Below, in pieces: positions 23,691 through 26,558 of a stretch of DNA of 64,000 nucleotides. Each line of letters starts with the position of its first letter. The first letter of the stretch is position 1. The notes under the pieces are model-generated. The model was given only the letters and a program-made list of their open reading frames with translations, ran no database searches and had not been told where the DNA came from. The DNA is taken from contig CALXWY010000001.1 in assembly GCA_944392535.1 (NCBI GenBank), positions 186,001 through 250,000 of the forward strand, given 5' to 3'. The translations under genes and the position numbers were made by a program. This DNA comes from an uncultured Alphaproteobacteria bacterium (lineage in GTDB: Bacteria; Pseudomonadota; Alphaproteobacteria; Rs-D84).

Positions 23691-24638
23691 ATGAAATTAC
23701 AAAAGTTTTTTGTAAATCTGTTATGTGCATTTGTTCCGGTTAAAAAGTGGCGCCACAGTATACGCCGGCATTTATTTTATGATAAATTTGCCAGACAAAA
23801 CTATGTGGCATTAAAGCAAGAATGGCTGGCCAGGAATGGTGGCAAAAAATTGTTGCCGGGTCGGTTTGAAAAATATGACTTGGTGTTCGGCATTGGGGCC
23901 ACATGTAACGTTAAGACGTATTTGAATTTTTTTGAATTATCAAAGTTCACAACACCGCTTGATTGGACAGCGGGGGAAACAGTAAATGGTTTTTGGAACC
24001 AATCAAGAATATATAGAGATACAAAATTTACAGAAAAAGTAAAGGCGTTGTGTAATGATTTTGATGGATATTATAATCCATCGGATTTTTATTTAAGAAA
24101 CAAGCCGATGAAAGATGATATCTTTCACCATATGGCTGAAAATATAAGAACAGGTATTTCGTTTGTACATTCTTTTCCGATTGAACAGAGTATGGAACAA
24201 TATATGCCGACGTTTGTTGAAACAATGAAACGGCGATCAAAGCGGTTGATAAAAGCAATAAAAAAATCTGATAAAATTTTGATTGTTTGGCTGCATCGGG
24301 TTTTGGACCAGATAGATGCAATGGATGCCCCAGTTACAGATGCACAAATAACCGATGCCATAAAAAGGTTAAGTAAAAAGTTCCCGGGCAAGTACATAGA
24401 TTTTGTGTTCTTTGAAAACGATGGGTACAAGAACAGGTTTGAGTTTGAAAAATGCGAAATTTCTGTTCCAAAAATCCCAAATTGTCGGGCATATCGTGTA
24501 AAATCAAATCATTATATTCTTGAACCAATTTATACTTACAAATATCATTTCCCAGGTGGCAGATTTGGCCAGCCGTCGTTGGTTATTTCCGAAGCGTTGG
24601 ATAATATCAGTTTAACCGGTAAAAAAATCGTGGATTAA
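23691..24638 (+). CDS. DUF1796-type (putative papain-like cysteine peptidase) protein
   Basis: 315 residues. The stretch LVFGIGATCNVKTYLNFF and then TTPLDW matches the DUF1796 signature (FSLGxxCxxA...PFDW), where the Cys is proposed as nucleophile. Further along come WLHRVL, FFENDG and a C-terminal YHFPGG. The family is often found near surface-polysaccharide genes, and a transfer or modifying role has been suggested. No signal peptide is evident. It has its own promoter and sits alone between hemolysin III and the thrS leader. Confidence 0.65.
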   Translation: MKLQKFFVNLLCAFVPVKKWRHSIRRHLFYDKFARQNYVALKQEWLARNGGKKLLPGRFEKYDLVFGIGATCNVKTYLNFFELSKFTTPLDWTAGETVNGFWNQSRIYRDTKFTEKVKALCNDFDGYYNPSDFYLRNKPMKDDIFHHMAENIRTGISFVHSFPIEQSMEQYMPTFVETMKRRSKRLIKAIKKSDKILIVWLHRVLDQIDAMDAPVTDAQITDAIKRLSKKFPGKYIDFVFFENDGYKNRFEFEKCEISVPKIPNCRAYRVKSNHYILEPIYTYKYHFPGGRFGQPSLVISEALDNISLTGKKIVD

Positions 24639-24643
24639 GTTTG

Positions 24644-24672
24644 TTGACATTTTGTGGTATTAGTATTATTAT
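24644..24672 (+). promoter_or_regulatory. Strong promoter of the thrS leader
   Basis: A perfect TTGACA at 24644-24649 and TATTAT at 24667-24672 with a 17-base spacer. RNA would begin around 24679, only a few bases before the leader ATG at 24683. It is the best -35 match I noticed in the window. Confidence 0.8.
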
Positions 24673-24682
24673 TCAATCTGTT

Positions 24683-24742
24683 ATGAAAAAAATTGGTTTC
24701 TTGTTCGTTACAATAACAACCACAACCCCCACGGGGGTATAA
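24683..24742 (+). CDS. Threonine-rich leader peptide upstream of thrS
   Basis: 19 residues, MKKIGFLFVTITTTTPTGV, ending at TAA 24740-24742. Six of the 19 residues are Thr (codons ACA, ACA, ACC, ACA, ACC, ACG), grouped in TITTTTPT, directly upstream of thrS. This resembles the thrL leader of enterobacterial threonine operons, in which ribosome stalling at Thr codons senses charged tRNA-Thr. I infer a translation-dependent control of thrS. There is no Shine-Dalgarno site, but the promoter places the ATG almost at the RNA start. Confidence 0.75.
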   Translation: MKKIGFLFVTITTTTPTGV

Positions 24743-24817
24743 GATTTCTATTTGCGCATTGGCGCGTTCGGTGTAATAATCAATAACAATTCGTTTAATT
24801 TTTTTATAACAAGGGGA
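24726..24817 (+). promoter_or_regulatory. Possible leader RNA switch between the Thr leader and thrS
   Basis: CCCCC at 24726-24730 can pair with GGGGG at 24733-24737, or its C-run with GGGG of the thrS ribosome-binding site AAGGGGA at 24811-24817. The two pairings exclude each other, which would suit a stalling-controlled switch. A T-run (24800-24805) follows only a weak stem. This is an inference from complementarity. Confidence 0.4.
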
Positions 24818-24824
24818 TTTTATT

Positions 24825-26558
24825 ATGTCTTATCCGATTGAAACGATTCGTCATTCGTTGGCACACGTTATGGCGGCGGCGGTACAAAAGTTGTACCCAG
24901 ATGTTAAATTTGCCGGGGGGCCGGCGATTGAAAACGGCTTTTATTATGATTTTGATACAGAACATCGTTTTTCCGAAGAAGACTTTGAAAAGATAGAACG
25001 CGAAATGCGTGAACTGATTAAATCAAATGGCCGATTTGAACAACGTAATGTCAGTCTGGATGAAGCCAAGCAGATTTTTGCCGCACAACCGTACAAGATG
25101 GAATGGTTGAATGAATACGATGCCGCTGGCGAAGCGTTGTCTGTGTATACTTTCCGCGATTTTGTGGATTTATGTCGTGGGCCACACGTTGAAAGTTCCA
25201 AGGATTTACCACGCGATTCGTTCAAAATTCGTACTGTTGCGGGTGCATACTGGAAAGGTGACGCAAAAAATAAAATGTTGCAACGTATATATGTTGATGC
25301 GTTCGCAACCAAAGAAGAATTAGATGAATTCTTGAAAATGCAAGAAGAAGCCGCCGCGCGCGATAACCGTAAACTGGGCAAGGATATGGATTTATTCCAT
25401 TTTGAACCAGATTATGCCCCGGGTGCGGTATTCTGGCACGACAAAGGGTACAAAATTTATCGCCGTCTGATTGATTATATCCGTCATCGCCAAGAAATGG
25501 CCGGTTATCAAGAAATTTCAACCCCGTCTGTTATGGACAGATCGCTGTGGGAACGCAGTGGACATTGGGCAAAATATGGTGAACATAATTATTCCGGAAA
25601 AACCCAGGATGGAAAAACTTTTTGTGTAAAGCCGATGTCTTGTCCGGGCGGAATGCTGGTCTTTGGCCAGGGTATCAAATCGTACAAAGATTTGCCGTTG
25701 TATTTGGCGGAATTCGGTAAAGTTTGCCGGTACGAGGCCGCTGGTGGGCTGTCGGGATTAATGCGTGTGCGCGAATTTACCCAAGACGATGCGCATATTT
25801 TCTGTACCGAAGAACAATTGGAAGAAGAAGTTGTAAAAATATTACGCTTTATCAAAGATATTTATGGCAAGTTTGGTTTTACAAATATTTCCATGAAATT
25901 GGCAACGCGCAAGGAATCAGAGTTCCGTATCGGGTCTGATGAAATTTGGGACAAGGCCGAAGGCGCGTTAAAGCATGCGTTGGATGCAAATGGTATTGAA
26001 TATGAAATTGCGCCAGGGGATGCTGCGTTTTATGGACCAAAAATTGATAATTATTTGAAAGATGCGCTGGGGCGCACGTGGCAGTGTGGTACCGTGCAAT
26101 TGGATATGAATTTGCCAGAACGATTTGATTTATCATATATTGGTGAAGATGGTGAAAAACATCGTCCGATTATGTTGCACCGCGCAATGTTGGGTTCAAT
26201 TGAACGTTTTATGGGAATATTACTGGAATCTACGGGTGGTAATTTGCCACTGTGGTTATCCCCAGAACCAGTTGTGGTAACACCAATTTCGGAAAAGTAT
26301 CGTGACTATGCAACGGATGTTGTGAACCGTTTGCGGAATGCCGGTGTGTATGCGCGTGCAGATTTACGTGATGAAAAAGTAAACTATAAAATCCGTGAAC
26401 TGTCGCTGGCCAAGACGCCGATTATCGCAATCGTTGGCGAAAAAGAAATGGAAAATAATACCGTGACTTTGCGTCATCTGGGTGTGGAAAAACAAGAAAC
26501 GATGCCTGTGGACGAATTTGTCGCCAGTATGGCCGATGCCGTGAAATTGCCGGCGTAA
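24825..26558 (+). CDS. thrS: Threonyl-tRNA synthetase, without the N-terminal TGS domain
   Basis: 577 residues, shorter than the common 640-residue form. It starts directly with the editing domain, where IRHSLAHVMAAAV supplies the HxxxH site. The class II core has the motif with MSCPGGMLVFGQGIK and YLAEFGKVCRYEAAG, then VREFTQDDAHIFC, and the C-terminal anticodon domain (EPVVVTPISEKYRDYA). The N-terminal TGS domain present in most ThrRS is missing here, as in some other bacteria. It is preceded by a Thr-rich leader. Start ATG at 24825 has AAGGGGA eight bases upstream. Confidence 0.96.
   Translation: MSYPIETIRHSLAHVMAAAVQKLYPDVKFAGGPAIENGFYYDFDTEHRFSEEDFEKIEREMRELIKSNGRFEQRNVSLDEAKQIFAAQPYKMEWLNEYDAAGEALSVYTFRDFVDLCRGPHVESSKDLPRDSFKIRTVAGAYWKGDAKNKMLQRIYVDAFATKEELDEFLKMQEEAAARDNRKLGKDMDLFHFEPDYAPGAVFWHDKGYKIYRRLIDYIRHRQEMAGYQEISTPSVMDRSLWERSGHWAKYGEHNYSGKTQDGKTFCVKPMSCPGGMLVFGQGIKSYKDLPLYLAEFGKVCRYEAAGGLSGLMRVREFTQDDAHIFCTEEQLEEEVVKILRFIKDIYGKFGFTNISMKLATRKESEFRIGSDEIWDKAEGALKHALDANGIEYEIAPGDAAFYGPKIDNYLKDALGRTWQCGTVQLDMNLPERFDLSYIGEDGEKHRPIMLHRAMLGSIERFMGILLESTGGNLPLWLSPEPVVVTPISEKYRDYATDVVNRLRNAGVYARADLRDEKVNYKIRELSLAKTPIIAIVGEKEMENNTVTLRHLGVEKQETMPVDEFVASMADAVKLPA

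Follow-up and report, generated by a model that had tools for sequence, protein, structure and literature searches.

In the thr, his and phe (pheST, with pheM) attenuators of Gammaproteobacteria, a short ORF carrying codons for the cognate amino acid serves as a ribosome-stalling sensor, and it is combined with a U-tract terminator and an antiterminator. T-box riboswitches sense tRNA charging at synthetase genes. The thrS gene of E. coli has an autogenous operator, a tRNA-like structure that is bound by threonyl-tRNA synthetase (ThrRS) via its N-terminal domains. Few cases are known in which a leader peptide controls a synthetase gene, and these normally have an ordinary 5′ region and a terminator behind the leader. 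In bacilli, a His leader peptide belongs to hisS*/hisZ and was predicted with premature terminators in Firmicutes (PMC2965389). Leaderless short ORFs with runs of cysteine codons are found at cysteine genes of mycobacteria and, as summarized in later papers, have a translational output (Canestrari 2020, cited in PMC9031893 and PMC13236596). Both the sensor logic of leader peptides and, for mycobacterial cysteine genes as described in those summaries, the leaderless cognate-codon ORF are therefore already known. In the open-access literature, no published leaders of the type described below were found for thrS, serS or hisS of Alphaproteobacteria.

The window analysed here is a stretch of 64,000 nucleotides from a Candidatus Enterousia-like alphaproteobacterium of the GTDB order Rs-D84 with a genome of 0.95 Mb. 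Enterousia has been placed in this order (PMC12306168). An earlier note, made from the letters of the window alone, had described a near-consensus promoter and a Thr-rich frame ahead of thrS, and both are confirmed (Table 1): the frame holds six Thr codons, and the thrS ATG follows 82 nt past its stop. The ORF is thus short, enriched in cognate codons and directly upstream of its gene, as are those of the thrL, hisL and pheM attenuators. A domain search of the thrS product finds tRNA_SAD, tRNA-synt_2b and HGTP_anticodon, and no TGS. The locus has in common with the E. coli thrS operator that thrS is predicted to be controlled in a proteobacterium; in contrast to that operator, TGS is missing and a Thr-codon ORF is present. 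No large conserved 5′ structure was found. The N-terminal TGS domain of ThrRS is likewise missing in the loci examined from family f1 and in several further lineages of Rs-D84, whereas f6 and part of f4 keep it. As for the surroundings, gltX (21284) is a neighbour within the window, and an ORF of 315 aa without a Pfam match (23691–24638) lies between a haemolysin-III-like gene and the first thrS promoter, P1. In relatives such as L006 and L190, the apparent end of the haemolysin-III-like gene stands directly 5′ of P1.

Table 1. Features of the thrS leader region, with positions in the window.
Feature	Positions	Strand	Sequence and properties
Promoter P1	24644–24672	+	TTGACA 24644–24649, 17-nt spacer, TATTAT 24667–24672; 11/12 consensus bases
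Leader ORF	24683–24742	+	MKKIGFLFVTITTTTPTGV; ATG 24683, stop TAA 24740–24742; no Shine-Dalgarno; conserved Thr run
Hairpin 1	24725–24738	+	ACCCC-CACG-GGGGU; ACC, the last Thr codon, opens the 5′ arm; the stop codon comes right behind the 3′ arm
Linker	24745–24753	+	TTTCTATTT; between the hairpins; strongly conserved at thrS and at serS leaders (serS loci L119–L121)
Promoter P2 (predicted)	24752–24780	+	TTGCGC-17-AATAAT, extended −10 TGT 24772–24774; expected start ~24787
Hairpin 2	24754–24765	+	GCGC-AUUG-GCGC; 5′ arm overlaps P2 −35 box; covarying arms
thrS, threonyl-tRNA synthetase	24825–26558	+	577 aa, ATG 24825, without N-terminal TGS domain

The DNA 5′ of thrS was read in 88 genomes of the order Rs-D84. 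Each of the 58 loci read from the window's genus carries a Thr-run leader ahead of thrS, as do 75 of the 87 complete loci of the order, with representatives in families f1, f2, f3, f4 and f6 (L080, at a contig end, falls outside the 87; its genome carries the leader at the end of another contig, L261). The ORFs are about 14–21 codons long, and routine gene calling is likely to overlook frames this short. In the 73 loci that were aligned, the last two codons before Pro always encode Thr and the third-last does so in 70, where ACT (35), ACA (20), ACC (8) and ACG (7) are all in use. Synonymous variation among ACA, ACT, ACC and ACG occurs at each of these Thr codons except the one inside the hairpin. 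Since the Thr codons vary while Thr is kept, it is the amino acid and not the DNA that is conserved. The frame is thus kept across the order, and the lack of conservation that the earlier note had named as an argument against leader control is not observed. In the same survey of 88 genomes, genus g4 of f4 lacks the leader, and so do a g25 locus (L066), loci in the f1 genera g19 and g20, and a few further loci. Its absence from one f4 genus and several other members indicates that it is not indispensable. One of the g19 loci without a leader (L057) has an apparent opposite-strand tRNA gene and a single promoter directly 5′ of thrS. A search with a covariance model for the leader matched 5 of 385 alphaproteobacterial genomes, all of them inside Rs-D84, and pattern matches place the leader in Candidatus Enterousia and other Alphaproteobacteria MAGs.

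A second characteristic of the leader is its position relative to P1. In nearly all loci of the five families, 6–10 nt separate the end of the P1 −10 box from the leader AUG, and the promoter spacer is mostly 17 nt. The exceptions are L027, where the ATG is 12 nt away but a TTG in the same frame lies at 6 nt, and L065, in which no convincing P1 is seen. Transcription usually starts 6–8 nt past the −10 box. Given this spacing, the leader mRNA should begin at the AUG or within about 5 nt of it, and hence be leaderless or nearly so; in the window, promoter geometry places the expected start at ~24678–24681, 2–5 nt 5′ of the AUG. No Shine-Dalgarno sequence fits the leader AUG in the loci of the order. 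Leaderless translation looks ordinary in the window's genome, because the promoter-to-ATG pattern is common there (78 matches against 27 for a reversed control) and often stands 5′ of long ORFs. The leader resembles the mycobacterial polycysteine ORFs, as these are described in the citing papers, in its consecutive cognate codons upstream and in an AUG at the mRNA 5′ end, the latter by promoter geometry only. It differs from them, on the same description, in having synthetase genes as targets, a conserved hairpin within the ORF and no masking of the ribosome-binding site.

The earlier note had also reported a C-run (24726–24730) and a G-run (24733–24737), which are present as described, and had proposed that the C-run pairs either with this local G-run or with the GGGG of the thrS Shine-Dalgarno sequence. 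The local pairing holds, as hairpin 1 has a predicted pairing probability of ~1.0 in nearly all loci. The pairing with the Shine-Dalgarno sequence is unsupported and not kept; it is peculiar to the window, since the sites of most relatives are of the AAGG type. The consensus of hairpin 1, ACCCC-N4-GGGGU, amounts to codons for Thr-Pro-x-Gly-Val with the stop codon next to them. In L081, the hairpin reads ACCCC-GUAA-GGGGC with the stop codon in the loop, and in L088 it reads ACCC-GAAA-GGGU, the peptide ending in TTTTRKG. That hairpin 1 is kept where the peptide changes argues for an RNA feature that does not depend on the peptide. Because its 5′ arm begins at the last Thr codon, this arm would be covered by a ribosome stalled at most positions of the run.

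Leaders of related design precede two further synthetase genes. The serS leader of the window's genome is MTKIFLSFDTLSSPFGVRI, and related ORFs occur in six other loci (families f1, f3 and f6); in serS leaders, among them MTKIFLSFDTLSSPFGVRI, MKFVFLSLRHSSSPFGVRI and MKFKVIVFLSSSSPVGE, Ser codons run into the hairpin. The serS leader is missing from most other Enterousia species that were read. The hisS leader of the window's genome is MIYKTFVFVALHHARRAVCL, with related ORFs in ten other loci and ends such as ...LHHARRAVCL, ...VHHAHGGVHF and ...HHAHMGVCF. In most hisS leaders His-His runs lead into a longer hairpin, and the stop codon is TAG in 11 of 11. P1 lies 5–9 nt 5′ of the start codon in each of the serS and hisS leaders, and in most the 5′ arm of the hairpin begins with the final cognate codon or right beside it. 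Downstream, three serS leader loci also have hairpin 2 and a P2 of the form TTGCGN-16/17-TATAAT, and most hisS leaders have an extended −10 element, TGATATAAT, about 20 nt past the stop. At hisS, TTTCTAGCG or a similar sequence takes the position of the thrS/serS linker TTTCTATTT.

No leader was found in the upstream regions read of ileS, valS, leuS, metS, proS, glyS, pheS, aspS and lysS, nor in those of two synthetases that matched the Tyr/Trp family. The exchange of the codon run for the cognate amino acid at thrS, serS and hisS is the strongest evidence for a sensor of tRNA charging, and as a matter of sequence comparison the cognate leaders at serS and hisS argue strongly for such a sensor. 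The earlier note had proposed that a leader peptide controls thrS in an alphaproteobacterium. Comparison strongly supports this prediction, through the Thr codons conserved across the order, the serS and hisS cognates and the confinement to this order within the class. The bacillar hisS*/hisZ leader likewise brings His codons before a gene of the histidyl-tRNA synthetase family, although no sequence relation to the Rs-D84 leaders was seen (PMC2965389). Sensing of tRNA charging at synthetase genes is also shared with T-box riboswitches; unlike these, the window gives no T-box match in Rfam.

Between the leader and thrS, the linker is followed by hairpin 2 and a second promoter, P2. The arms of hairpin 2 change in a compensatory manner (GCGC/GCGC, GCGG/CCGC, GCGA/TCGC, GCAC/GTGC and GTGC/GCAC), and an exact partner arm is found in 61 of 71 loci, compared with a mean of 24.6 and a maximum of 37 when arms are permuted among loci. 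P2 has the form TTGCGN-16/17-TATAAT in most thrS loci and lies directly 3′ of the leader. In the window's subgroup its −10 box is AATAAT, and a TGn extension is then present in nearly all. The −35/−10 spacing stays constant at 16–17 nt, whereas hairpin 2 lies at varying distances from TATAAT. P2 is also kept in L066, where the leader is lost. Together, the fixed spacing and the retention in L066 point to a real promoter. Hairpin 2 as a terminator was considered and rejected, as it has no U-tract and it is the −35/−10 spacing, not the distance of the hairpin to TATAAT, that is constant. Among leader-bearing loci, no clear P2 was found in L081, L083 and L085; in L083 and L085 there are small hairpins resembling hairpin 2. 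P2 should give thrS transcripts without the leader, so that the leader directly controls only the P1 share, and P2 would dilute any control of P1. The earlier note had regarded a transcription start downstream of 24683 as evidence against leader control. This objection applies in half, as such a start is predicted from the conserved P2. We regard the leader, its cognate codons, its leaderless geometry, both hairpins, P2 and the distribution of the leader as established by the compared sequences.

Based on these features, it is reasonably likely that a ribosome senses the charging of tRNA-Thr on the thrS leader, such that stalling blocks hairpin 1, hairpin 1 restrains P1, and P2 is basal. The P1 transcript would start at the leader AUG or within a few bases of it, and ribosomes would load on its 5′ end. 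When charged tRNA-Thr is scarce, the ribosome would stall in the Thr run and cover the 5′ arm of hairpin 1; when it is plentiful, the ribosome would complete the leader and depart, and hairpin 1 would form. Hairpin 1 would restrain P1 transcription ahead of thrS by a pause or by termination without a U-tract, and ribosome stalling on the Thr codons would raise thrS expression. P2 would supply basal, leader-independent thrS mRNA. The same device would serve serS with Ser codons and hisS with His codons. The sensor is well supported by the comparison, from which we infer the output step, along with translation of the leader and stalling on it, the direction of control, the effect of hairpin 1 on RNA polymerase and the role of P2. 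A fast ribosome trailing the polymerase closely would melt hairpin 1 too, which makes the timing required for the switch conjectural.

The analogy to thrL and pheM drawn in the earlier note stands for the sensor and does not extend to the output. Like the thr, his and phe attenuators, the thrS leader has a short cognate-codon ORF, a predicted stalling sensor and a first hairpin that overlaps the control codons. Unlike them, it is leaderless or nearly so, its stop codon lies beyond hairpin 1, a second promoter follows the leader, the targets are thrS, serS and hisS, and no U-tract terminator or antiterminator is present. No U-tract follows hairpin 1 (mean 3.4 U in the next 8 nt, maximum 4), and no plus-strand terminator-like site lies between the leader and thrS in the window. 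No antiterminator was found, the best downstream partner of the G-run reaching 7.2 compared with 7.6 for shuffled sequence, and the consensus fold consists of two separate hairpins without a mutually exclusive antiterminator pairing. A pairing of the G-run with the UUCUA linker, put forward by RNAalifold, was rejected because it is weak, mostly G-U and no stronger than in shuffled sequence. There is no conserved pairing between the leader and the thrS start region or ribosome-binding site, and Rfam returns nothing above threshold in the window's leader. With no terminator, antiterminator or masking found, the comparison does not bear out textbook attenuation, and we infer the effect of hairpin 1 on the polymerase.

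Hairpin 1 is directly followed by P2 at most of the thrS and hisS loci and at several serS loci, and a polymerase held by a hairpin pause ~11 nt beyond hairpin 1 would sit on the −35 box or spacer of P2. It is conceivable, although we consider it unlikely, that hairpin 1 pauses the P1 polymerase on P2 and thereby blocks P2, and that stalling frees P2, so that both promoters are controlled. Such interference would account for a terminator being unnecessary; however, polymerase pausing remains hypothetical, and the three leader-bearing loci without a clear P2 do not fit. The wider version, in which thrS, serS and hisS throughout the lineage have leaderless, terminator-free attenuators whose hairpin halts the polymerase atop a downstream promoter, one codon run gating two promoters, is to us just as doubtful.

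Once the ribosome has left the leader, Rho could also terminate P1 transcription within the 80 untranslated nt ahead of thrS, unless a stalled ribosome prevents it. This gap, the missing intrinsic terminator and the Rho RNA-binding domain found by domain search in the window's genome, G000, and in six of eight other genomes speak for Rho-dependent attenuation. We think it distinctly improbable, since the domain was not found in two Enterousia genomes that bear the leader, G059 (listed as 100% complete) and G021 (94%), and since the conserved hairpin 1 would be left without a clear reason. G059 and G021 may have lost Rho.

Translational attenuation of the mycobacterial polycysteine type, in which stalling unmasks the thrS ribosome-binding site, would share the design of a leaderless cognate-codon ORF as far as it is set out in PMC9031893. 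It is very unlikely here, since accessibility of the thrS start is unchanged when the leader is masked up to hairpin 1 (mean 0.48 to 0.50, 75 loci) and no start-region pairing is conserved. Still less probable is that hairpin 1 or hairpin 2 is an unusual intrinsic terminator, or that a stalled ribosome sets the stability of the leader mRNA. A strong GC hairpin does stand beside regulatory codons, with the U-rich linker UUUCUAUUU 4–6 nt later; but these U residues are not adjacent to the stem, and several of these loci do have typical terminators, marked by long T-runs, immediately 5′ of P1. Finally, a functional micropeptide or sequence-dependent arrest peptide, suggested by the hydrophobic, Phe-rich N-terminal half of most leaders and the conserved Thr-Pro-x-Gly-Val end, deserves almost no credence, since the N-terminal sequence is not conserved, Pro-x-Gly-Val is encoded by the hairpin and lost in L081 and L088 where the hairpin is kept, and Thr is replaced by Ser or His in the serS and hisS leaders.

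Outside the order, a Thr-run ORF with an ACCCC-NNN-GGGGG(U) hairpin was seen in 11 Bacteroidota contigs (L153, L157, L160, L161, L168, L197, L202, L203, L208, L216 and L223), mostly directly 5′ of thrA (aspartokinase/homoserine dehydrogenase). Ten of them end in TTTP[L/W]GV, no U-tract is evident, and no Rfam family scores above threshold. The tail of the Millionella leader, TATAGTTTCTATTTTGC, is nearly equal to the Enterousia linker.

In Rs-D84, an order of gut bacteria with reduced genomes, three synthetases with leaderless or nearly leaderless leaders and no recognisable terminator raise the question of how the stall is relayed. The leader system is compact (~100 nt), modular across amino acids and could be rebuilt as a reporter in a laboratory strain. 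Reduced Rs-D84 genomes are missing amino-acid biosynthesis pathways (PMC12306168), which fits sensing at the synthetase gene. For three of their charging enzymes, cells of this order probably gauge the amino acid by the stalling of a ribosome.
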